Shown: in pieces, positions 16,696 through 30,613 of the stretch
Numbering within the stretch: the first letter of the stretch is position 1
How the letters are laid out: the number at the start of each line of letters is the position of its first letter
Assembly (NCBI GenBank): GCA_949287065.1
Contig: CASEEV010000030.1
Coordinates: 1 to 39,869, forward strand
Direction: 5' to 3'
Origin: an uncultured Collinsella sp.
Lineage (GTDB): Bacteria; Actinomycetota; Coriobacteriia; Coriobacteriales; Coriobacteriaceae
Length of the DNA: 39,869 bases
The notes under the pieces: generated by a model
Seen by the model: only the letters and a program-made list of their open reading frames with translations
What the model was told of the DNA's origin: nothing
Database searches by the model: none
Position numbers and translations under genes: made by a program

Positions 16696-16805
16696 GCCTA
16701 CGCAAAATGCGAGCCTACGCAGTTTGCGCAGGCAACGCTTCTGATAAAGCGATTAACCAGCAAGCTAAATGCGCATTTTGCGTACTCTGCGCATTTTGCG
16801 TAGGC
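16696..16805. repeat. Imperfect 35-base inverted repeat in the purF-TIR gap
   Basis: The 433-base gap 16503-16935 holds no gene. The outer arms, GCCTACGCAAAATGCG (16696-16711) and its exact complement (16790-16805), are followed inward by TACGCAGTTTGCGCA (about 16716-16730) and TGCGCATTTTGCGTA (16770-16784), which pair with three mismatches. The two right-hand units are also direct repeats 18 bases apart (16770 and 16788). The centre (16731-16769) is AT-richer. The TGCGCATTTTGCGTA unit is itself near-palindromic, so the whole can form a large cruciform or hairpin. It lies upstream of the TIR gene and could be a regulatory site or a dead mobile element. Confidence 0.75.
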
Positions 16806-16935
16806 AATCGCGGCCCGTGCGGACGCCGGCCTACGCCTCGCGTCGCCCTGCCCGTACTTCTCCGCTACCGCGCAGGCGAGAGCAGCCTGCCGCGAAGAAG
16901 CGGTCTCAACAGCCGCCCGCCCCGAAAGGACCGTC

Positions 16936-19900
16936 ATGACCGCCTGCCCCGTCTGCCATCACGAGCCGCCCGCCGGCGCCGCGTTCTGCCCGCGCTGCGA
17001 GGCAGCGCTGAGCGGCACGCCGGCCTACGACGACTACGCTTACGAGGCGTTTATCTCCTACCGTCACGCACCGCGTGACCAAAGGCTCGCCCGGCGCATC
17101 CAGCGGCGCATCGAGGGCTTTGCCATACCCCGTGAACCCGAGGGCCCGCGCGCCGGCGAGAAGCTCGGCAAGTGCTTCCGCGACGAAGACGAGCTCCATA
17201 CGAGCGACTCGCTGCCGGCGCTTATCGAAGACGCGCTCAAGCGCTCGCGCTTTCTCATCGTTATCTGCAGCCCCGCCATGCGCGAGAGCCCCTGGGTCGC
17301 ACGCGAGGTCGAGCTCTTTGCCGCCTACCACGGACGCCAGCGCATTCTGCCCGTGCTCGCCGAGGGCGAGCCTGAAGACGCCTTCCCGCCCCTGCTCATG
17401 ACCGTGCTCGAGAAGAACGAGGGCACGGGCGAGCTGACCGAGCGCCCCTGCGAGCCGCTCGCCGCCGACATGCGCGACGCCGCCCGCAAGAGCTTTGGCG
17501 CCGAGCTCCTGCGCGTGGTGGCGCCCATCGCAGGCTGCGGCTACGACGACCTGCGACAACGCGAGCGCCTGCGCCGCATCACGCGCACCGCCGTGGCCGC
17601 CGGCGCTGCCGCCGTCATCGCCGCGGGCTTCGGCGCTTTCGCGCTCTACCAGCAGGTTCAGATCGAGCGCAACTACGATGCGGCGCTTCTTAACCAGTCG
17701 CAGTACCTCGCCGAGGAGGCGCAGGAGCTTCTCGCCCAGGGCGACCGCATGCAGGCCGTGCAGGTTGCGCTGGCGGCCCTCGGCGAGAGCGAGGGCAGCC
17801 GCCCCTACACGCCCTCGGCGCGGCTTGCCCTCGAGCAGGCGTGCGAGGTGTATCCGGGGTCGTACTGGCGCCCTGTGTACGCCAACCACCTCGACGAGGA
17901 GCTCAGCGCCTGGAACCTGGTCATGAGCGCGGACGCGGGCTGCTATGCCGTGGACACCTCAAACGGCACGGTGCACGTATACGACCTGGTAACCGGCGAA
18001 GAGACCTGCACGGTACGCGACGCGTCGACGTTCCTTTCCGCCACGTGCTTTGCGGGCAGCAAGCTCGTCTGCGCATGGGGCAACGACGAGGCGGCCGTGT
18101 TTGACCCGCGCACCGGAGAAGAGCTCGCACGCGCCGAGCTGCCCGTCGCCGAGGGAGTAAGCGGCTACGTGGGCGACATCGCCGCCGCCCCCGACGGCAG
18201 CCTCGCGGCGCTCACGTGGCGGGGAACCGACGGCGAGACCGGCGAGGGAGTTCTCATAACCTACCTGCTCGACACCGCCACCGGAGAGATCAGCGCGCAG
18301 CAGACCTTCTCCTACGACGAGAGCCTCGACGCCTACGACTACTCGCTACCCTACCTCTTTACCGCAGCCTTCTCGTCCGACGGGTCGACGCTCGTGCAAT
18401 CGGCGGGCGAGACCCTGCACGTGCTCGACGTTGCCCGCGGCACGTGGAAGGACGTGCAAACCTCCGAAGGCGTTGTCACCTCGCTGCGCTTTGCGGGAGA
18501 TGCGCTCTACGCCGTCGCCTTTGACGAGAAGGACCGGGGCAGCCAGTTTGTTATCAGCGCGTACGACCCGCAAGGCTTCGAGCGCCGCTGGAGCTTCCGC
18601 TTGGGCGCAAGCACCCCGAGCATCACCAATGATACCTCCGTGCCTGCCATCTACGGCGTCACCAAACGCAACGAGGGCACGCACCTGCTCGTCTCGTACA
18701 ACCAGCACGTGTACTTCCTCAACGTCAAGACCGGCGAGGCAGAACTCGACTTCGAGGCAACGGGGCAGGTGCAGGCGGCAACCTGCGCCGACGAGGACAA
18801 GGGCGGCTTTGCCTACGTGGCAGACGGCAAGCCCTCCACCGCCTTCGACCCGTTTGGCTACCGCGAGATCGGCGAGCTCGGCATCGCGTACAGCGGCAAC
18901 CCGCCCTCGGCGCCCAACACCTACGGCGGCGAGCCCGAGACGGGGGCCTGGTACGCCGACTTTGTCGTGCTCAAAAGCGGCGAGCAGCTCTGCATCACCG
19001 CCAACCCGCAGACCAACAGCACCTCCGTTTGGCGCTACGACCTCGAGAACGACTGCCCCGGCGCCGAAGAGACCGACGAGAAGCTCGCCTCCGCCATGGA
19101 CACCTCGTTCCACGCGCCCCAGCGCAGCACCGAGGGCACCTACGTTGCGGTCTTTGACTCAACCGCCAACGAGGCCCTTATCGCAGACGGCGCCACCTTC
19201 GCCACCGAGCGCACCCTGGACCTCGCCGCGCTTGCCCCTGGCGAAAGCTCCTTCAGCGTGTTTCTCAGCCCCGAGGACGACGAGGTTCTCTACCTTGCGG
19301 CAGGCAACACGCTCACCACCGTGAATTTGGCAACCGGAGAGAAGCTCGGCTCGTACGAGTCGCCCGCGTACAGCATAGAGGAGAGCGGCCTCGCCTTCCG
19401 CAACGGCAAACTTTACGCGTTCGAGCACTACACCGACCTGAGCGCGTCTGCCGCCGGCGAGATCGCAGAGGCCACGGAGCTTGTCGCGCTCGACCCGCGC
19501 ACGCTGGAAGAGACGGACCGTCTCGTCCTTACCCCTGCACACGAGGACGAGATGAGCGACGCCGACTGCGTCGTGCTTCTCGACAACATGCTCGTGGCGT
19601 CGATTGCCGCCTACGACGACGCATCGACCGACGTATCCTACTTGCTGCACACCTTCGACCTCGCGAGCGGCGAGGAAATCACAGCCGAGATCTCGGGCAC
19701 CGTCGTTCCCGCGGCGTACTCCCAAAGCTCGCTGCACGCAAGCGACGACGGCACGCGCCTGGCGTTTGCCACCGCAGGCGAGGTCGTGCTGGCAACCAGC
19801 GAGGGCAGCATCCTGTGGCGCGCCGACTTGGCGGAACAGGGCATCGCTCCCGAGCTGGCGTCCAACCCCTTCGTTGCCTTCACGCCCGAAGGCAACGTTG

Positions 19901-20274
19901 TAGTGCAAGACACCAACGGCCAGCTTCTGCTGCTCAGCGGGCAAACGGGCAGCACCCTCGCCACATCGCAGGCGGCCGACCTCGACTCCATCGATGACGT
20001 TTGGCTCTCGCTCGACGGCACGCGCCTGTACGCGCGCACCTCGCTCGGCGACCTGCACACCATCGCGCTCGAGGCCGACCTCTTTGGCGTCGAGTCGTCG
20101 GTAACCTGCGGCACCGTGACCTCCTCGGACGAGCGGCACGTGCTCGTCGAAGACAGTTACGGCTCGTCGGTCCTGCCGCTCTACACCACCGACGAGCTGC
20201 GCTCCTTTGCCCAGGAACTCATCGCCGGCCACGAGCTCACCGAAGCCGAAAAGCGCGCCTACCACATCGACTAA
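16936..20274 (+). CDS. Zinc-ribbon, TIR, transmembrane, beta-propeller receptor-like protein
   Basis: 1112 residues. A zinc ribbon at 4-21 (CPVCHHEPPAG, CPRC) is followed by a TIR domain at about 35-150: YEAFISYRH, CFRDEDELHTS, a SRFLIVICSPAMRESPWVAREVE block and RILPVLAEGE. Glu124 in WVAREVE aligns by eye with the catalytic Glu of SARM1-type TIR NADases. After a linker, one hydrophobic Ala/Gly segment (about 217-238) follows a positive RLRRITRT, so the N-terminal part should be cytoplasmic and the rest outside. Residues of about 250-290 look like a helical repeat, and from about 320 to 1090 there are repeated beta-propeller blades of WD40/PQQ type (for example VHVYDLVTGEETC, VFDPRTGEELA). 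The start follows GAAAGGA. A signalling or NAD-cleaving receptor is inferred. Confidence 0.85.
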   Translation: MTACPVCHHEPPAGAAFCPRCEAALSGTPAYDDYAYEAFISYRHAPRDQRLARRIQRRIEGFAIPREPEGPRAGEKLGKCFRDEDELHTSDSLPALIEDALKRSRFLIVICSPAMRESPWVAREVELFAAYHGRQRILPVLAEGEPEDAFPPLLMTVLEKNEGTGELTERPCEPLAADMRDAARKSFGAELLRVVAPIAGCGYDDLRQRERLRRITRTAVAAGAAAVIAAGFGAFALYQQVQIERNYDAALLNQSQYLAEEAQELLAQGDRMQAVQVALAALGESEGSRPYTPSARLALEQACEVYPGSYWRPVYANHLDEELSAWNLVMSADAGCYAVDTSNGTVHVYDLVTGEETCTVRDASTFLSATCFAGSKLVCAWGNDEAAVFDPRTGEELARAELPVAEGVSGYVGDIAAAPDGSLAALTWRGTDGETGEGVLITYLLDTATGEISAQQTFSYDESLDAYDYSLPYLFTAAFSSDGSTLVQSAGETLHVLDVARGTWKDVQTSEGVVTSLRFAGDALYAVAFDEKDRGSQFVISAYDPQGFERRWSFRLGASTPSITNDTSVPAIYGVTKRNEGTHLLVSYNQHVYFLNVKTGEAELDFEATGQVQAATCADEDKGGFAYVADGKPSTAFDPFGYREIGELGIAYSGNPPSAPNTYGGEPETGAWYADFVVLKSGEQLCITANPQTNSTSVWRYDLENDCPGAEETDEKLASAMDTSFHAPQRSTEGTYVAVFDSTANEALIADGATFATERTLDLAALAPGESSFSVFLSPEDDEVLYLAAGNTLTTVNLATGEKLGSYESPAYSIEESGLAFRNGKLYAFEHYTDLSASAAGEIAEATELVALDPRTLEETDRLVLTPAHEDEMSDADCVVLLDNMLVASIAAYDDASTDVSYLLHTFDLASGEEITAEISGTVVPAAYSQSSLHASDDGTRLAFATAGEVVLATSEGSILWRADLAEQGIAPELASNPFVAFTPEGNVVVQDTNGQLLLLSGQTGSTLATSQAADLDSIDDVWLSLDGTRLYARTSLGDLHTIALEADLFGVESSVTCGTVTSSDERHVLVEDSYGSSVLPLYTTDELRSFAQELIAGHELTEAEKRAYHID

Positions 20275-20364
20275 CGCCGCCGGCTTTCCACCCGGCCGCC
20301 CCGGTCGGCCCCGGTTGGCCTCATCCCCCCTCCCCTTCCCTGCCCGGTCGTCCACTCCCCTCCC

Positions 20365-20400
20365 CTGCCAAATAACGCTGTTAACAGCGTTTTTTGGCAG
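20365..20400 (+). terminator. Terminator of the TIR gene (near-perfect palindrome)
   Basis: CTGCCAAATAACGCTG (20365-20380) pairs with 20385-20400 around TTAA with one mismatch, and the inner stem AACGCTG/CAGCGTT runs into T's at 20390-20395. Being nearly symmetrical, it can act in both directions. Confidence 0.8.
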
Positions 20401-20468
20401 AGGGGCAACTACCTCATCTACCTGCGGCGACACGTTATCCTCCCTGCTCAGAGCCGGTGGACAAAATT

Positions 20469-20489
20469 CGCTGTCAACGGCGTTTTTTT
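20469..20489 (-). terminator. Second hairpin, probable terminator for the minus-strand signalling genes
   Basis: CGCTG-TCAA-CGGCG, followed on the plus strand by seven T's and on the minus strand by AATTTT, closely resembles the stem at 20365-20400. It is the first hairpin met after the kinase-like gene stop (20586). The gap 20275-20585 otherwise holds nothing I can call. Confidence 0.6.
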
Positions 20490-20585
20490 GGCAGGGGGAG
20501 GAAGAGGGGGCGTCCAGGCCGAGAAGATCGGCCGAGAAGGACGGGGCGACCGTGGTGGCCACCGCCCGGGCGGCGAGCCCAGCCC

Positions 20586-22085
20586 CTACCGGCAGATGGC
20601 GAGCCCCGCCAGCGCGAGCAGGCGCGGGATGTCGCGGGCGTGGGCGCGGTTGTAGTCCTTGTCGTCCTCGGACAGCTCGTCGTACGGCACGAGGCTCGGG
20701 TTGACGCGCTTCTCCACGTCCTTGGCCGGGCCCCAGGTCCAGCCAGCGGCGCGGCGCTCGGCGCACCAGCGGCGGTGCTCCATATAGGCGAGGTACTCCA
20801 CCTCGTCATCGGTAAACGACGCTACCCGCCGCCCGACGCGACACGCATCCGCCTCCACCACGCGGTAGCCGAGCGCGTACACCTTGGCCGGCACGTCTTT
20901 GACCTGCGCCGTCGTGGACCCGCGCAGCGCCTCGGGCTGGGTGTCGAGCGTGCGCGCCTCAAGCGCCGCCCCGCCGCGGCTCGCCTGCTCGACGTAGGTC
21001 CTAAACGCCCGGTCCACCAGCCCGTCGAGCGATCCGTACATCTTGGCCTCGGGGTGCAGCATCTTGAGCAGCGCCCGATCGTACGCGTCAACGTAGCCGC
21101 CATGATGCACCGTGGCGCGCGCCATGGCGAGAAGGTCCGGCTCGGGAAAGGTCTCGGCGCAGACCGGCGCGAGCCCCAGCTCGTGCGCCCGAGCATCGAT
21201 GTCGAGCTCTTGGTCGATCATGCGCGCAAACACCGTGCCGTCGGCGCGGTAGGCAAAAAGCGGCCACGTCCCAAGCTGCGCGCGCAGGTCCTCAGGCGCC
21301 GCTCCGGTTGCGGGCACGCCCGTCGCAAGCTCAAAGAGCAGCGCCGCCAGGTAGCCCATGTCGATCTGCAACGGCATAAAGTCCTGGGGCGCTGCGGCGC
21401 CCAGCTCTGCGGGCAGGCGCCTGAAGAGGTGCGCATACGGCTCGTTGGCGTACGCCACGCGCTCGCCGGCGTCGTGCGCGGCGAGCTCAAAGTCTATGAG
21501 CGTGGCGTGCAGGTCCTCAGGCCCAGGGCCGCAGCGCTTAACGCACACGTTTGCCGCACGCAAGTCGCGGTGGTAGCTGTTCTCGGCATGCAGGTTCGCA
21601 AGCTGCACCATCACGTCAAAGGCAATCTTGGCTGCCTCGCGCTCGCGCTCGGGCGTCCCCACCTCGCTGAGCGGCGCGGCCGAGAAGCGTGGGGGCCCAC
21701 AGGCACCCTCGGGCTCCCCTAAAGCCAGCAACGTCTCGTCAACGGGGATCGGCGCGGCCGAGAAGAGCGCCCGCTCGAGCGAGACGCCGGCGTACTCCTC
21801 CACGAGCGCAAGGCCCGAAGCGCCTTGACCGCGCGCGGCAAGGTAGGGGCACAGAAGCTGCGGGCCTACGCCGATCGCAGCGTTGCGTGCAAGGCTCGCG
21901 AGCTCGTTGGCGTACTGGGCCTCGGCGCCTGGCGCAAACGTCACGAGCAAAGCGTCGCGGCGGACCCCTTGGGCGTCAACATAGGTGCCGCGGAAGAGCA
22001 CCTTGCGCTCGGAAGAGGCAATGACCTCGCCCGTGCGATAAAAGCAGCCGCGCGGCGCGCGGTCCCTCACAACGGTTGCCGCCAT
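20586..22085 (-). CDS. Protein-kinase-like protein with C-terminal RyR domain
   Basis: 499 residues. Residues of about 15-330 follow the Ser/Thr kinase fold: the catalytic loop is HRDLRAANV (His172, Asp174, Asn179) and the metal-binding motif is LIDFELA (Asp198, with DFE in place of DFG). The glycine loop is not recognisable, and the strand that should carry the VAIK lysine reads ALLVTF, so Lys seems absent; Glu61 may be the helix-C Glu. The last 80 residues are a RyR domain (PF02026-like): EVEYLAYMEHRRWCAERRAA, GWTWGPAKD, NPSLVPYDELSEDDKDYNR. Bacterial RyR domains are thought to bind small ligands or nucleotides. The start ATG at 22085 is six bases after the FHA gene stop, so they form an operon. 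It may be an atypical kinase or pseudokinase. Confidence 0.78.
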   Translation of the reverse strand: MAATVVRDRAPRGCFYRTGEVIASSERKVLFRGTYVDAQGVRRDALLVTFAPGAEAQYANELASLARNAAIGVGPQLLCPYLAARGQGASGLALVEEYAGVSLERALFSAAPIPVDETLLALGEPEGACGPPRFSAAPLSEVGTPEREREAAKIAFDVMVQLANLHAENSYHRDLRAANVCVKRCGPGPEDLHATLIDFELAAHDAGERVAYANEPYAHLFRRLPAELGAAAPQDFMPLQIDMGYLAALLFELATGVPATGAAPEDLRAQLGTWPLFAYRADGTVFARMIDQELDIDARAHELGLAPVCAETFPEPDLLAMARATVHHGGYVDAYDRALLKMLHPEAKMYGSLDGLVDRAFRTYVEQASRGGAALEARTLDTQPEALRGSTTAQVKDVPAKVYALGYRVVEADACRVGRRVASFTDDEVEYLAYMEHRRWCAERRAAGWTWGPAKDVEKRVNPSLVPYDELSEDDKDYNRAHARDIPRLLALAGLAICR

Positions 22086-22091
22086 GGCTGC

Positions 22092-23567
22092 CTACAGGAT
22101 CTCGAACTCGGAATCGCCGAGGTAGATGCGGTCGCCGCGATACGCTGCTGCCGCGGGCCGCTCGCCCATGGCAGGGTCGTGGCCAAGGTCGACCTGGGAT
22201 CCGTCGGCGCGCCTGAGCGTCGTTCCGTTGCTCGAGGCAAGGTCCACGAGAACCACCCTTCCGTCAACGGCGCACACCGCAACGTGCCGCGCGGAGTCGG
22301 CCGGCTGGTCGGTGGGATAAAAGTTCTCGTTCGTCTCGCACGCATGGGCCGCATCGGAGAAGGCAAACGCCACGGCAGCCGCCTCGAGCTCAGCATCGGC
22401 GCCTCGCGCCGCACCGGCAGGCTCGTCGCAGCCCTCCGCGCCGTAGGCGGGCAGCGGGCGCGCCTCGCCGCCGAACTCGCGGCCGATCACAAAGAGCAGC
22501 GCGCTGCCGCGCTCGGGCAGGGCGTCGAGGTTCACCACGCGCGCAAGGTACGTTACGTTGCCAGGCAGAATCTGGCGCACCAGAGCCTCGCCGCCGCCGC
22601 GCACAAGCGGACCGGTGGCCGCAAGCTCGCGCGGCACAAAGCCCGTAAGCTCGGTGCGCGCGGTCTCGGCGGCATAGCAGTCGCGCAGCGCCTGCTTGGG
22701 TCCAAAGAACGCGCTGATCACCACGTTGTAGATAACCGCGCCCTTACGGGCGTTCCACAGCGCATCGCACTCCATAAAGGAGGCGCGGTAAGCGTCGAAG
22801 GAGTCGAGCGTCGTGCGCTCGAAGTAGCGCACCGCGGCCTCGGAGTGCCCTTGGGCACGGAACGCCCCCGCAAGGCGCGCCACCAACTCAGCCACCGGCG
22901 AGCGCCCCAGCTCGGAGTCCGCGTCAAAGCGATCCCACAGGTCGAGCCCCCAGAGCATGCTGTCTTGCCCGCGCTCGGTCTGCAGCATCTTCTTAAACGC
23001 GTCGGCGCCGGGCTCCATGCTCTCAAAGCGCGCCCGGTCGCGCTCGGCGCGCACCAAAAACCGGTCGAGCTCATCCGCGTCAAACGCATTCGCATAGCGC
23101 TCGCGCAGCGCACGCAGTTGCGCGATGGTCTTCTTGTCGTAAGCCGCCGGCGGCCAGCCCTTGCAGAACTCCTGGCGGAGCTTGTCGTCGCCCTTCTCGG
23201 CAAGGCGCAACGGCGAGTTGCCGTAGCTCTCGCGGGCGCGGCGGAGCTTGTCGCCGGTCAGCTCCTCGAGGTCAACGCCCTTGGCGGTAAAAGCCGAGGC
23301 GCCAAACTCGGCGGCGGCGCACCTAAACGCCAGCTGCCGCTCACGATCGGCAATCAAACGCGGCGCAAACACGCTCTCGGGCAGCGTCGAGGCGAGAGAA
23401 TTGCGGTTAAAGAGCGCGCGTTCCACAAACATCAGCGCGTCGGAGCCATACTCCACGCTCGTGGGCGCCGCACCCGCCAGGTCCTCGCGGTACACCCGCG
23501 CGGTGTCCTTAAATCCTCCCGGCAGGTCGTACAGCGCGTCCCTCAGAACGATCACCGACTCGAGCAT
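22092..23567 (-). CDS. FHA-domain protein
   Basis: 491 residues. The C-terminal ~100 residues form a forkhead-associated domain, which binds phosphothreonine peptides: SARHVAVCAVDGRVVLVDL, then ASSNGTTLR, and a final RGDRIYLGDSEFEIL. The Ser-x-x-His and Asn-Gly elements are present; the preceding Gly-Arg of the consensus is not clear, so pThr binding may be altered. The N-terminal ~390 residues are helical and charged, with no recognised domain, and contain YNVVISAFFGPKQALRD and GREFGGEARPLP. ATG 23567 is preferred (GGAGG five bases upstream) over the TTG at 23591. Its 5' end overlaps the end of the PP2C-like gene by 59 bases, and it is followed by the kinase-like gene after six bases. It is a likely scaffold of the module. 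Confidence 0.75.
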   Translation of the reverse strand: MLESVIVLRDALYDLPGGFKDTARVYREDLAGAAPTSVEYGSDALMFVERALFNRNSLASTLPESVFAPRLIADRERQLAFRCAAAEFGASAFTAKGVDLEELTGDKLRRARESYGNSPLRLAEKGDDKLRQEFCKGWPPAAYDKKTIAQLRALRERYANAFDADELDRFLVRAERDRARFESMEPGADAFKKMLQTERGQDSMLWGLDLWDRFDADSELGRSPVAELVARLAGAFRAQGHSEAAVRYFERTTLDSFDAYRASFMECDALWNARKGAVIYNVVISAFFGPKQALRDCYAAETARTELTGFVPRELAATGPLVRGGGEALVRQILPGNVTYLARVVNLDALPERGSALLFVIGREFGGEARPLPAYGAEGCDEPAGAARGADAELEAAAVAFAFSDAAHACETNENFYPTDQPADSARHVAVCAVDGRVVLVDLASSNGTTLRRADGSQVDLGHDPAMGERPAAAAYRGDRIYLGDSEFEIL

Positions 23568-24252
23568 GGGCGCCTCCGCAGGTAAAGCCAACTACCACCA
23601 CGGCCGCGCCGCCCAAACAACCCTGCGCATGCGCCGCCCGGGCCAAGGCACGCGCCGCAGCCTGGGGCTCGCCGGCGCCCAGACACAACGCGCGCGCCAG
23701 CTCCGCAGGCAGCAACGCACGTGCGTCGGCCGACATAAGCACAAGGTAGGGGTACGCGTCCGTCAGCTTTCCAGTATAGCGCGCCACGCTCGCCGCCACG
23801 CAGCGGCCCGAGCCCAGATACGCCGAGAAGCGCCGCTTACGCCCGCAAGCGGCCTGCGGCACCGAGCGTGCGCCGCCCGGTCCTACGAGAAGCGCCGACG
23901 GCCCGCCCAGGCAGGCAACCTCGAACGCGCCCGTCCGGTCCCACTGCGCACGCCACACGGCAGCGCCGCCCGCCGCCGAGCCCGCATGGTCGAGCGCCGC
24001 TGCAACCTGCCGGTCGAGCTGGGCGGCGCGCGGTCCAAACGGCCGCGCCGGACCCAGGGCGCCTCCGCACGCGCGCAGCGCAATATGCTCGAGCGGCATG
24101 CCGCACTTCTCGTCCGGCCGCCGTACACGGGCAGGCGGCCCGCTCACCACCGCGGCGCTTCTCCCGGCAACGGCAAAAGCAGCCGTAACGCCGCAGGCGC
24201 TTGCCCCGCGCACACACGACCCCGCTGCCTCAACGCAGCCGCAGCCACCCAT
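23509..24252 (-). CDS. Degenerate PP2C-like phosphatase protein
   Basis: 247 residues. The order of segments recalls PP2C phosphatases: a GSCVRGASACG opening, a strand AFEVACLGGPSALLVGPGG where active enzymes have GDSRAYL, a DAYPYLVLMSADARALLPAE segment where they have the SDGL motif, and a final GCLGGAAVVVVGF where they have DNATVVVV. The metal-binding Asp residues at all these places are missing (GGPS, SADA, GGAA), so a non-catalytic protein is likely. The assignment is by eye and uncertain. ATG 24252 follows GGGAAGG closely; a GTG at 24288 is also possible. The 59-base overlap with the FHA gene supports co-translation. Its bias to Ala, Gly and Arg is stronger than in the neighbours. Confidence 0.55.
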   Translation of the reverse strand: MGGCGCVEAAGSCVRGASACGVTAAFAVAGRSAAVVSGPPARVRRPDEKCGMPLEHIALRACGGALGPARPFGPRAAQLDRQVAAALDHAGSAAGGAAVWRAQWDRTGAFEVACLGGPSALLVGPGGARSVPQAACGRKRRFSAYLGSGRCVAASVARYTGKLTDAYPYLVLMSADARALLPAELARALCLGAGEPQAAARALARAAHAQGCLGGAAVVVVGFTCGGAHARVGDRSEGRAVRPAGRI

Positions 24253-24430: not shown

Positions 24431-25609
24431 TTACTGGGAGGAGCTCACGTAGCTCTCGTCTACGGTGATCTTGCAGATGGTCTTGGGGTAATGGCTTCGC
24501 ACGATGTCGGTAATGCGGCGCTTGAGCTGGCTCTCCGACATGCCGAGGTCAGCGGGGCGCACGCAGTCAAAGATCACGTTGGTGTGCGTGGGCCCGGGCA
24601 CCGTGCGCAGGTCGTGAATCGAAACGCGCGGGTCGATGATCTTCACCGCCTGGTTGATCCAGTTGCGCATGTCGTTGACCTCGGGGTCGTCGGTCACGAT
24701 GGGGTCGTAATGCAGCGTCACGATCATGTTGTCCTGCACCTTGAAGTCCTGCTCGATGGTGTCGATCAGGTCGTGGCTCTCCATGGGGTCTGCCTCGGCG
24801 GCCATCTCAACGTGAGCGCTCGCAAACTGCCGGCCCGGGCCGTAGTCGTGCACCATGAGGTCGTGCGTGCCGAGCACGCCCGGGTAGCTCATGATCTTGC
24901 CGCGGATGTGCTCGACGAGCTCCTCGGACGGCGCTTGGCCGAGCAGCGGGTTCACGGTGTCGCGCACAAGACAGGCGCCGCTCCACAGGATAAAGACGCC
25001 CACGGCAAGGCCCACCCAGCCGTCGAGCTGCACGCCCGTCGTCTCGGACACCACGGCCGAGAGGAGCACCGCGCCGGTGGAGATCACGTCGTTGCGCGAG
25101 TCCACGGCTGTGGCCTCGAGCGTCTCTGACCCAATGCGGCGGCCCACGGTGCGGTTGAACGCCGCCATCCAGAGCTTCACCAGAATAGAAAGCACGAGAA
25201 CCACCACGAGCGCCGCGCTGAACTCGACCGGCGTGGGCTCGAGGATCTTCTCGACCGACGACTTGAGCAGCTCGACGCCGATGGCCATGACGATAACCGC
25301 CACGACGAGCCCCGAGAGGTACTCGAAGCGGCCGTGACCGTAGGGGTGACCCGGGTCGGCGGGCTTGCTCGCGAGCTTGAAGCCGAGCAAGCTGATGACG
25401 TTGGACGAAGCGTCGGAGAGGTTGTTCACCGCGTCGGCCACGATGGAGACCGAGCCGGCCATAAGGCCCACCGCACCCTTGGCGAGGCAGAGCGCCACGT
25501 TGCAGACGATGCCCACAACGCCGGCGAACTGCCCCATGCGGGCGCGCGCCTGCGGGTTCCCCGCATCCTCAGCATCGGCAACAAAATGCCTGATCAGCCA
25601 TTCGGTCAT
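24431..25609 (-). CDS. Cation diffusion facilitator (CDF) transporter
   Basis: 392 residues, a membrane exporter of divalent metals in exchange for protons. Six membrane helices are seen between about residues 25 and 225. The transport-site aspartates are in SIVADAVNNLSDASSN and in AVDSRNDVISTGAVLL, with the HPYGHGRFEYLSG motif between them. This fits the DxxxD plus HD/DD pattern of Zn/Fe/Mn exporters. The cytosolic C-terminal domain (about 230-380) carries MVHDYGPGRQFASAHVEM, as usual for the dimer interface. It is longer than the usual 300 residues because of an extended C-terminal region (TLHYDPIVTDDPEVNDMRNW onward). It diverges from trmB across 160 bases; a TACAAT lies on the minus strand at 25681-25686. 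The metal cannot be told from sequence. Confidence 0.9.
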   Translation of the reverse strand: MTEWLIRHFVADAEDAGNPQARARMGQFAGVVGIVCNVALCLAKGAVGLMAGSVSIVADAVNNLSDASSNVISLLGFKLASKPADPGHPYGHGRFEYLSGLVVAVIVMAIGVELLKSSVEKILEPTPVEFSAALVVVLVLSILVKLWMAAFNRTVGRRIGSETLEATAVDSRNDVISTGAVLLSAVVSETTGVQLDGWVGLAVGVFILWSGACLVRDTVNPLLGQAPSEELVEHIRGKIMSYPGVLGTHDLMVHDYGPGRQFASAHVEMAAEADPMESHDLIDTIEQDFKVQDNMIVTLHYDPIVTDDPEVNDMRNWINQAVKIIDPRVSIHDLRTVPGPTHTNVIFDCVRPADLGMSESQLKRRITDIVRSHYPKTICKITVDESYVSSSQ

Positions 25610-27226: not shown

Positions 27227-30200
27227 CTAGTCGCGGGACGCGTCCTCGGCGTCCCTGCGCTTCTTGATCGGATAGGGCGCGAGCTGGCTTGCGCGCGGGT
27301 CGGTTGCGCGGTCGATCATGGCCGAGAGGCGCGGCGGCTCCTTGACCTTGCGCCCCGCGAGGTCGGTGAGCGCCGCAAGGGCGAGCGCGACCTCGGGCGG
27401 GTCGAGCTGCTTCTCCTCGGCCTGCCAGCTCCAGTTGCCCGATGCAACGCCCGGGACGTTCATGCGCGCGTCGTCGTTCAGGCCGAGCACGTCCTGAAGC
27501 GGCATCATGGCAACCACGGCGTCGCTGACCATAACCGACTTCTTGATCTTCTCGGCGATCTCGGTGGCGTCGCCCGTGCCGAACGCGCCCTCGCACCAGC
27601 CCAGCAGCGTCTGGGTGTCGTGGGTCGAGGTGTAGGCGATCTTGCCCGCATGGGCGCGGTAGCCCTCGCGCACGTCGTAGTCGGCAAAGAGCGCCACGTC
27701 CATGCCCGCAAAGCCCGTGCGCGCCACCAGGCCGCGCACCGCGGGCGTGATGGTGCCCAGGTCCTCGGCGATGATGGGCAACGGCCCCAGACGGCGACGG
27801 GCGCGCTCAAAGAGCTCGATGCCCGGGCCCGGGATCCAGCGGCCCTCGGAGGCGGGCTTGCCGAGCGGGATGCCGTAGTAGCTCTCGAGACCCAGGAAGT
27901 GGTCGAAGCGCGTCCAGTCGTAGAGCTCCATCATGCGCGACAGGCGGCCGGTCCACCAGAAGTACCCGGTGCGCTTGTGCTCCGCCCACCGGTAGGTGGG
28001 GTTGCCCCAGACCTGGCCCTGCGCCGCAAAGGCGTCGGGCGGGGTGCCCGCGACCTCGGTCGGGTTCCCCTCGGCATCGATGTTGAAGAGCTCCGGATAC
28101 GCCCACACGTCGGCGGAGTCGGCCGAGACGTACATGGGCATGTCGCCGATGATCTCGATGCCGCGCACGTGCGCGTACGAGCGTAGCTCGCGCCACTCGC
28201 GGTCAAAGCGGAACTGGCAGAACATGTGGTAGCGCGCGTCGTCGATGAAGCGCGGGTCCTCGAGAAGGTCGCGGTCGTAGCGGCGCAGCTCGCGGGGCCA
28301 CTCCTGCCACGGCTTGCCGCCCTGGTAGTCGCGGATCGCCATGAAGGCCGCGTACGGCAGGAGCCACCAGGCGTTCTTCACGACGAAGCTGTGGTAGGAG
28401 GCGTCGGGCACGAAGGAGCTGAAGTACGCCTTGAGCGTGGCCTCGTCCTCCTCGAGCAGCGCCTCGTTGCCGGCAAAGGCCGAGACGCCCGCGTACGGGC
28501 TGCCGTAGTCGTCGACCGGGCTCACCGGGAGCACCTGCCAGTAGCGCTGGTGCGCCGGAGCGAGAAAGTCTACGAAGCGCTTGGCCGGCGCGCCGAGCGT
28601 GCCGGGGCGTTTGCCGTTGGGCACCGAGGTGATGTGGCACACCACGCCCGCGCCGCGGCCGAGTTGCTTGGTGAGGCGCTCCTCCTCGGTGTGGAAGTAC
28701 ACCACCGCAGACCCCAGGGGCCAGAGCTGCAGCGACACGTTGCCGTCTTCGTCGGGCACGAGGTCGGCGCCCGACACGAGGTCCTGCGCGGTCGCGCCGT
28801 ACATCGGCAGCTGCACGCGACGCGGACGCGTGGTCGAGCGGTTCACGAGAACCGCCGTGCGCTCCTCGTACTGGTCGCCGTAGCGCCAGAAGCCAAAGAC
28901 GTCGCGTCCGAACGAGAAGAACTTGATCGCGCCGTCAACGAGGAACGGCAGCGTGCGGCGCAGCGCGATGGCGTTGCGGTACATGACCTGGCAGTCGCCG
29001 TCCTCGTGGCCCCACGGGTACGGCCCGCGGTTGCACGGGTCGGTAAAGCCCTGCATGCCCGCCTCGTCGCCGTAGTAGATGGAGGGCACGCCGGCCATGG
29101 TCATCTGCAAGAGCACCGCGAGCCAAAAACGGCTCTTGGCGAGCTGGAGCTTGTCGTGCGGCAGCCAGTACTCGCCGCGCTCCTTGTCGGTAAAGAAGCT
29201 GTTCTCGGCCGGCGGGTCGCCGAGCACCGTGAGCAGGCGCGGACGGTCGTGGCTGCCGAGCAGGTTGAGCGAGTTGTAAAACGCCTCGCGCGGGTAGTTC
29301 TCGCGCAAAGACTCGAGCATCTCCTCGGCGTCCTGGGCGCCCAGGGAGCCCGTCAGAAAGCCGAGGATCGCGTCGCGGAACGGGTAGTTCATCGCCGCGT
29401 CGAGCTCGTCGCCGAGCAGGTAGCGGCGCAGTTTGCTGTACGCGGTCTTGTTGGAGGCATCCTCCCAGACCTCGCCGAGCACGAGCGCGTCTTCCTTGAC
29501 GCCCGTGGCGGCGGTGCGGATCTTCTCGATGAACTCGTCGGGGAGCTCGTCGGCCACGTCGAGGCGCCAGCCGTGGGCGCCCTCGCGCAGCCAGTGCTCG
29601 ACCACGCCGTCGGGACCCGTCACGAACTTCTGAAACGTCGGGTCGGACTCGTTGACGCTCGGCAGGGCAGAAACTCCCCACCAGCTGTCGTAGTGCGCGC
29701 CGTCCTCCGAGAAGTTGAACCACTTGCGGTACGGCGAGTCCTCGCTCTGCCACGCGCCCACGTCGGGGTAGTTGCCGAACTGGTTGAAGTAGCGCGAGTC
29801 ACTGCCGGTGTGGTTGAAGACGCCGTCCAAGATGATCGAGATGCCGCGCTTCTCGGCCTCGGCGCACAGCGACCTGAAGTCGGCATCGGTGCCGAGCATC
29901 GGGTCGATCTCGAGATAGTCGCCGGTGTCGTAGCGATGGTTGCTCTCGGCCTCGAAGATGGGGTTGAGGTAGATGGAAGTAACGCCCATCTCGACGAGGC
30001 GCGGAAGGTCCTCCTCGATGCCGGTGAGCGTACCGCCGTAAAAGTCCCAGGTCAGAACGCTGCCGTCTTCGCCGCGTTCGTAGTACGGGCGCTTGTACCA
30101 GTCTTCCACGAAGGCGCGGCGCGGCCCCTTGGGATGGAGCTTCATGGCCTGCTCGACGTTTTGGCGCCAGCCGTCGCCGCGGCGGTAACGGTCAGGGAAG

Positions 30201-30613
30201 ATCTGGTACACAATGCCCCGGCGGTACCACTCGGGCTGAACGGCGCGCGGCTTGTAGCACGTGATCTGGAACGAAGGCGGCATGTGGTCGCACAGCTCGC
30301 CCTCGCCGCCTACGCTGCCCGGACGGGCGCCCAGGTAGCGCGTCTTGGCGTGGGGCTCCTCGATAATGAAGCTGTACCAAAAAATAACCTGCTCATCGCA
30401 GGTCAGCGAGCATGTGAATCTCAGGTGGTCGCCGCAGGGCTGCGGCGTCATGGGTAGCAGGTGCTCGCCCTCGTCGTCTACCCATACACGACAGGTGCAC
30501 GTGGCGCGCGGGCTATCCCAGACCTCGACCGCCAACGTGACCGTTTGACCAAGACGCACCGCCCCGAACGGAGTTCGGAACGATGCGTCTCGAGAATTAT
30601 GCCGTGCTTCCAT
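27227..30613 (-). CDS. malQ: Fusion of GH13 neopullulanase/alpha-amylase and GH77 4-alpha-glucanotransferase
   Basis: 1128 residues, twice the size of either enzyme. Residues 1 to about 125 look like a CBM34-type beta domain; the GH13 barrel follows with region I LDGVFNHTG (about 260), region II GWRLDVADEL (catalytic Asp, about 349), region III LGEVWEDA (Glu, about 382) and region IV LLGSHDRPR (Asp, about 455). From about 655 the protein is a MalQ-type amylomaltase: DYGSPYAGVSAFAGNEALL, GDMPMYVSADSADVWAYPE, AGTPPDAFAAQGQVWGNP, TRFDHFLGLESYY (nucleophile Asp, about 903) and IIAEDLGTI (acid/base Glu, about 949). It would shorten and reshuffle alpha-1,4-glucans released by GlgP. The gene follows glgA by 54 bases. 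Confidence 0.93.
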   Translation of the reverse strand: MEARHNSRDASFRTPFGAVRLGQTVTLAVEVWDSPRATCTCRVWVDDEGEHLLPMTPQPCGDHLRFTCSLTCDEQVIFWYSFIIEEPHAKTRYLGARPGSVGGEGELCDHMPPSFQITCYKPRAVQPEWYRRGIVYQIFPDRYRRGDGWRQNVEQAMKLHPKGPRRAFVEDWYKRPYYERGEDGSVLTWDFYGGTLTGIEEDLPRLVEMGVTSIYLNPIFEAESNHRYDTGDYLEIDPMLGTDADFRSLCAEAEKRGISIILDGVFNHTGSDSRYFNQFGNYPDVGAWQSEDSPYRKWFNFSEDGAHYDSWWGVSALPSVNESDPTFQKFVTGPDGVVEHWLREGAHGWRLDVADELPDEFIEKIRTAATGVKEDALVLGEVWEDASNKTAYSKLRRYLLGDELDAAMNYPFRDAILGFLTGSLGAQDAEEMLESLRENYPREAFYNSLNLLGSHDRPRLLTVLGDPPAENSFFTDKERGEYWLPHDKLQLAKSRFWLAVLLQMTMAGVPSIYYGDEAGMQGFTDPCNRGPYPWGHEDGDCQVMYRNAIALRRTLPFLVDGAIKFFSFGRDVFGFWRYGDQYEERTAVLVNRSTTRPRRVQLPMYGATAQDLVSGADLVPDEDGNVSLQLWPLGSAVVYFHTEEERLTKQLGRGAGVVCHITSVPNGKRPGTLGAPAKRFVDFLAPAHQRYWQVLPVSPVDDYGSPYAGVSAFAGNEALLEEDEATLKAYFSSFVPDASYHSFVVKNAWWLLPYAAFMAIRDYQGGKPWQEWPRELRRYDRDLLEDPRFIDDARYHMFCQFRFDREWRELRSYAHVRGIEIIGDMPMYVSADSADVWAYPELFNIDAEGNPTEVAGTPPDAFAAQGQVWGNPTYRWAEHKRTGYFWWTGRLSRMMELYDWTRFDHFLGLESYYGIPLGKPASEGRWIPGPGIELFERARRRLGPLPIIAEDLGTITPAVRGLVARTGFAGMDVALFADYDVREGYRAHAGKIAYTSTHDTQTLLGWCEGAFGTGDATEIAEKIKKSVMVSDAVVAMMPLQDVLGLNDDARMNVPGVASGNWSWQAEEKQLDPPEVALALAALTDLAGRKVKEPPRLSAMIDRATDPRASQLAPYPIKKRRDAEDASRD

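Follow-up and report, generated by a model that had tools for sequence, protein, structure and literature searches.

Four genes lying together on contig C30 (CASEEV010000030.1) of the 2.08-Mb Coriobacteriaceae genome of an uncultured Collinsella sp. constitute a new variant of TIR signalling, in which a TIR protein is paired with a protein carrying an RyR domain. The window (the whole stretch of 39,869 nucleotides that was analysed) contains a plus-strand gene for a TIR receptor with a transmembrane (TM) helix and a beta-propeller, convergent with a minus-strand operon for a pseudo-PP2C, an FHA protein and a kinase-like protein ending in an RyR domain (kinase-RyR; Table 1). This arrangement had been proposed in an initial annotation made from the sequence alone, and all four genes are present where it placed them. 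The unit that recurs among relatives is TIR plus RyR, and not the whole quartet. We read the locus as a mobile TIR-RyR signalling module, in which a membrane TIR receptor would generate an ADP-ribose (ADPR)-type messenger acting on an RyR-gated kinase-like protein, and we consider the chances for and against this reading to be about evenly balanced.

The pairing was evaluated in relatives, whose loci and genomes are numbered here with L and G, respectively. Among 67 genomes of the family, each of the six TIR-TM-propeller loci has a kinase-RyR gene no more than about 4 kb away, in such a way that the separation of TIR gene and operon contemplated by the initial annotation was not seen, and the FHA protein was found, at the search sensitivity used, only where TIR and kinase-RyR occur. 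Diverged FHA proteins flank TIR in L016 and L019. In the 398 genomes of the class, TIR-TM proteins were detected in 42, RyR-profile matches in 46 and both in 27 (hypergeometric p 3e-19), and 20 TIR loci have RyR within 4 kb, the fusion in L123 not being counted (linkage probability 1.6e-34), values that are inflated by kinship between the genomes. The loci are spread over several families, and a draw from the phylum, in which genes were picked on RyR alone, is independent of any one lineage: there, 5 of 15 RyR genes from outside Coriobacteriia were within 5 kb of TIR (expected about 0.1, p 6e-8). When TIR-TM genes were read in their context, RyR was found within 4 kb in 21 of 40, and overlaps on the same strand or tight spacing of the genes in L111, L113, L117, L119 and L121 suggest co-transcription at these loci. 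Adjacency by chance, or by crowding within defence islands, without any joint function, could be invoked, having in mind that TIR-TM genes and the operon are each also found alone, but the linkage probabilities of the class and of the phylum draw, the overlapping genes and the swapping of domains between partners make it a very improbable explanation.

This swapping was apparent when the partners of TIR were compared between loci. In family f3, a single protein joins RyR to the helical domain known from the FHA protein, FHA itself being absent (L106, L108-L112, L115-L117, L119 and L127), and in L121 and L155 a lone RyR domain follows directly behind the TIR gene. RyR is fused to an AAA domain in L173 (AAA-RyR). 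A 2TM-TrkA_N-RyR protein is encoded beside TIR-TM-Septum_form in L166, a TrkA_N-RyR protein, its gene cut by the contig end, beside TIR-TM-PKD-PD40 in L163, and a multi-TM RyR protein, weakly matching TrkA_N, beside TIR-TM-PknH_C in L167, the same type of RyR protein being found beside TIR in L168. These last four RyR proteins, from Actinomycetota other than Coriobacteriia, are similar to K+ channels and are possible messenger-gated channels. In L123 (3599-7495) the same TM-propeller receptor carries a kinase-like domain in the place of TIR, and it is preceded by an FHA gene. As judged from these domain contents, RyR is the constant partner of TIR, and it is the putative outputs that vary. Genes of TerY-P type for VWA, PP2C and kinase proteins were also detected beside the module in L014, L015, L109 and L124, and for VWA and PP2C in L016 and L127. 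On a Priestia plasmid (NZ_CP128553.1, L175), a lone RyR gene was observed in a run with cyclase and Pycsar effector-family genes, a TIR gene lying about 1.4 kb downstream on the opposite strand.

The RyR domain of the kinase-RyR protein matches Pfam PF02026 with an E value of 3e-14 (53.3 bits, versus a curated cut-off of 27.4), and the RyR profile matches an animal RyR chain with 4e-29. The AF2 model of the protein (pLDDT 83) contains a full protein-kinase fold at residues 9-332 (Z 18), and D174 of the HRD motif, N179 and the DFG-type D198 are all invariant. Phage proteins of the same domain family, named RyDEP, bind or cleave 2' and 3' cyclic ADP-ribose (2'cADPR and 3'cADPR), which Thoeris TIR proteins use as messengers; six of eight phage RyR domains bind them, H75, W78, H100 and D117 being the residues involved, and only one tested phage protein cleaves them (PMC13232231, a 2026 preprint). 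H75 and W78 correspond in the window to H437 and W440, equally spaced, and Asn occupies exactly the +25 and +42 positions of H100 and D117, suggesting binding without cleavage, or another ligand. At other loci, nearly all RyR proteins have the equivalents of H75 and W78 with the same spacing, and most relatives have H, S or T at the H100 position and D or N, mostly D, at that of D117.

Because the recurrent partner is RyR, a fold that in phage binds TIR-made cADPR isomers (PMC13232231), we infer that TIR is the signal maker and the RyR protein the receiver. The RyR protein could instead be a brake that, like phage RyDEP, sequesters or hydrolyses the messenger of TIR, preventing self-damage or ending the response. 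Such a role matches exactly the known activity of RyR domains (PMC13232231), and the D117 equivalent is retained in most relatives outside the family. By contrast, Asn takes the place of both D117 and H100 in the window protein, cleavage is known for one phage protein only (PMC13232231), and fusion of RyR to kinase-fold, channel-like and AAA domains suggests an output rather than a sponge, so that we consider a brake to be rather improbable. RyDEP itself is a phage counter-defence protein, whereas the RyR domains described here are chromosomal, linked to TIR and fused to kinase-like or other domains. A viral relative of kinase-RyR was not confirmed, and plasmid and phage searches gave distant matches to RyR only.

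The TIR receptor was recognised by its TIR_2 (E 4e-11) and PQQ_2 propeller (E 6e-14) matches. Its N-terminus is Zn-ribbon-like, a single TM peak appears at residue 219 (helix at about 219-237), and the propeller region beyond it, of about 870 amino acids, is predicted to be outside. A catalytic-type Glu, E124 (WVARE), aligns with its counterparts in TcpB and PdTIR, and all 40 TIR-TM proteins whose sequence reaches this position have the Glu of the WVxxE motif. Some TIRs of relatives exceed the Pfam ThsB_TIR cut-off (L109, 5.5e-9). The start codon context GAAAGGA-ATG is kept in the sister species. Upstream of the gene, at 16696-16806, repeats in inverted and direct orientation (TGCGCATTTTGCGTA and its complement) are clustered; they are only partly conserved in the sister species and are possible operator sites. 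TIR-TM-propeller receptors with no RyR gene nearby were also found (L096-L105, L114, a tandem pair in L120, and L122), and in L100 (100-5300) the TIR-TM gene is preceded by a run of small open reading frames (ORFs; about 100-440 amino acids) that by eye resemble genes of WXG100 or secreted-toxin type.

TIR domains are frequently NADase effectors. A second interpretation is that this TIR is a terminal NADase effector that kills or stops the cell, restrained or released through phosphorylation by the kinase-like protein, the FHA protein and the pseudo-PP2C, with RyR doing no more than monitoring an adenine nucleotide, for instance ATP or NAD. The operon looks like a phospho-signalling set, and the separate control of convergent TIR gene and operon fits a split between effector and regulator. 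This interpretation is close to that of the initial annotation, which had TIR as the effector and gave RyR no role, and we regard it as unlikely: the pairing with TIR persists at loci where the RyR partner is not a kinase (channel/TrkA, AAA or helical proteins, a frequent case), and the sensor ectodomain lies on TIR itself, which makes TIR input-like, a place in which a kinase can substitute for it (L123). The recurrence of RyR as partner points instead to TIR as a maker of signal.

The other two proteins of the operon were also studied. The FHA gene has an ATG start at 23567, within a longer ORF beginning with TTG at 23591. Pfam gives the window protein a weak FHA match (0.07) and the relative in L016 one of 1e-5, and a structure search with the FHA model gave as best matches nearly all FHA domains (FhaA, GarA, OdhI). 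For the helical N-terminal domain, the structure search, made from a low-confidence model (pLDDT 62), produced no convincing match. The pseudo-PP2C itself has no Pfam match, although its L014 orthologue scores above the cut-off for PP2C (1.4e-5) and solved PP2Cs are matched by the family profile. All the metal-binding Asp motifs (DGxGG, GD, SDG and DD/DN) are lost in the window protein, consistent with its earlier description as a pseudo-enzyme; they are present in L131, and DGMGG and GD in L132. These two loci have the order PP2C, FHA, kinase-RyR with PP2C motifs and lack a linked TIR-TM gene, which suggests that the operon is an ancient phospho-signalling set, its phosphatase having died in the window lineage. 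The window genome has only one PP2C_2 match, on another contig. Compared with the 94%-identical sister locus L023, dN/dS values were 0.28 for TIR, 0.17 for kinase-RyR, 0.14 for FHA and 0.23 for the pseudo-PP2C, so that purifying selection acts on all four, which are real genes, and the dead phosphatase is a retained protein.

In the mechanism that we propose for the TIR-RyR module, the extracellular propeller would sense a cue such as phage contact, a toxin or envelope damage, and the cytosolic TIR domain would convert NAD+ into an ADP-ribose-type messenger. Binding of this messenger by the C-terminal RyR domain would switch the kinase-like domain, phosphothreonine produced by this protein or by another kinase would be read by the FHA protein, and the dead PP2C may serve as scaffold or regulator. 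The genes, their domains, the linkage, the insertion at a single site, purifying selection and the active-type residues kept in both TIR and the kinase are observed, whereas the identity of the messenger, its recognition by RyR, the sequence of steps and a defence role are what we infer. Extended to other bacteria, the proposal would be that RyR domains serve as inbuilt receptors for the cyclic ADP-ribose messengers that TIR proteins make, with kinase, AAA or K+-channel outputs, the window having the version in which a kinase is the output and the TIR receptor lies in the membrane. The system would then be a prokaryotic counterpart of the animal axis between cADPR and the ryanodine receptor, perhaps even its ancestor; our confidence in this proposal is tentative and falls somewhat short of an even chance.

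Several observations weigh against this mechanism. Nineteen of the 40 TIR-TM genes have no RyR within 4 kb, some of them being on short contigs and one, in L125, having a weak RyR adjoining, and the kinase-RyR operons of L130-L132 have no linked TIR-TM. Of the four-gene neighbourhood whose conservation in Coriobacteriia the initial annotation named as a check, the linkage between TIR and RyR does hold, far above chance in class and phylum, but the quartet is not the conserved unit. The kinase-like domain lacks the beta-3 (VAIK) Lys, for which the nearly invariant K28 (SSxRK) could substitute. The Asn residues at the H100 and D117 positions may give the window RyR a different ligand or affinity, and RyR domains also bind adenine ligands of ATP type. 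Finally, the extracellular topology of the propeller is a prediction, and PADLOC gave only weak matches for the four proteins.

The mobility of the block was deduced from its insertion site. In G001 and G003, of the same genus, purF and trmB lie next to each other in divergent orientation, separated by about 60-75 bp, and in G000 and G002 the TIR, kinase-RyR, FHA, pseudo-PP2C and cation efflux (CDF) transporter genes are interposed between them. The CDF gene thus shares the insertion with the four-gene block and is a candidate member of the system. Kinase-RyR islands of other genera (L016, L019) are also near trmB. A short RyR remnant occupies in G053 the place where G054 carries an intact island, and a second remnant was found in G064. 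The empty site, the remnants and the patchy presence suggest that the unit is gained, lost and decayed, the block having been gained or lost in same-genus relatives, and it looks like a mobile unit. A scan of genome contigs returned the sister species only. These features would fit a defence-type module. They could also reflect the ordinary turnover of accessory genes if the system were a non-immune sensor of envelope or host cues, formed by a one-component receptor and a phospho-relay, as the propeller and the ectodomains of PknH_C type are reminiscent of sensors for the cell wall or for nutrients and the only phage protein family matching these proteins is RyR itself. Patchy gain and loss with decayed remnants, and the Pycsar effector-family and SIR2-family genes that adjoin plasmid RyR genes, favour a role in conflict, and a non-immune sensor seems to us an unlikely explanation too.

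Neither PADLOC nor NCBIfam provided a strong system name for the four proteins, and the locus was compared with known systems. As in Thoeris, a TIR protein adjoins a protein whose domain family can bind ADPR-type messengers. In contrast to Thoeris, TIR is here part of a receptor embedded in the membrane, with a propeller predicted to be extracellular; RyR takes the receiver position that SLOG or Macro has in Thoeris, and a kinase-like, channel-like or AAA domain takes the output position of SIR2 or TM-Macro. Domain-library searches detected no SLOG, Macro or other known Thoeris receiver or effector domain in the three operon proteins, and Thoeris was rejected as the identity of the locus because a known receiver domain is missing. 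The TerY-P triad (VWA, PP2C, kinase) is represented beside the module in the four relatives mentioned above, but the block has no linked VWA and no live PP2C, so it was likewise discarded. The order PP2C-FHA-kinase is shared with the threonine phosphorylation sets of type VI and VII secretion, whereas the window kinase bears RyR, the PP2C is dead and, as the initial annotation had noted, no secretion genes were recognised among the neighbours (purF, CDF, trmB, deformylase, transporter and sugar genes), so a secretion regulator was also rejected. With the R12 repeats of animal ryanodine receptors the similarity is one of RyR domain homology; the window has no calcium channel, and it is other Actinomycetota that fuse RyR to TrkA/2TM channel-like proteins. 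No description of bacterial TIR-RyR operons was found in the literature searched, in which subscription papers and preprints had limited coverage, and the searched parts of PMC13232231 say nothing of a linkage between RyR and TIR genes in bacteria.

The coordinates of all the features are collected in Table 1. The initial annotation had described two similar hairpins between the convergent genes. The first is strong, with folding energies of -29.7 kcal/mol on the plus and -29.9 on the minus strand (z -7.7/-6.8 versus shuffles), as would be expected of a shared terminator of both genes. The second did not hold as a stable structure, as it folds no better than shuffles. Outside the block, alpha-amylase and 4-alpha-glucanotransferase (GH77) domains are joined in a single ORF at 27227-30613.

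Table 1. Features of the locus, in positions of the window.
Feature	Position	Strand	Description and basis
TIR receptor	16936..20274	+	1112 amino acids; Pfam TIR_2 and PQQ_2
Two-way terminator-like hairpin	20363..20402	both	Strong; fold energy
Partial, degenerate copy of the first hairpin	about 20468..20494	+	Folds no better than shuffles
Kinase-RyR	20586..22085	-	Kinase-like domain (about 1-340) and C-terminal RyR domain (429-497); Pfam RyR, kinase fold
FHA protein	22092..23567	-	Helical N-terminal domain (about 1-300) and C-terminal FHA domain; Pfam, structure search
Pseudo-PP2C	23509..24252	-	Metal-ligand motifs lost; orthologue over Pfam cut-off, family profile
Cation efflux (CDF) transporter	24431..25609	-	Same inserted stretch as the four genes

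The direct action of cADPR on animal ryanodine receptors is a long-standing dispute. A bacterial TIR-RyR pair, if true, would offer a small genetic system for testing whether RyR domains read TIR messengers. TIR immunity would gain a further class of receiver, the existence of RyR sponges in phages would have a reason, and gut-type bacteria would have a candidate TIR receptor that lies in the membrane and carries an extracellular sensor.

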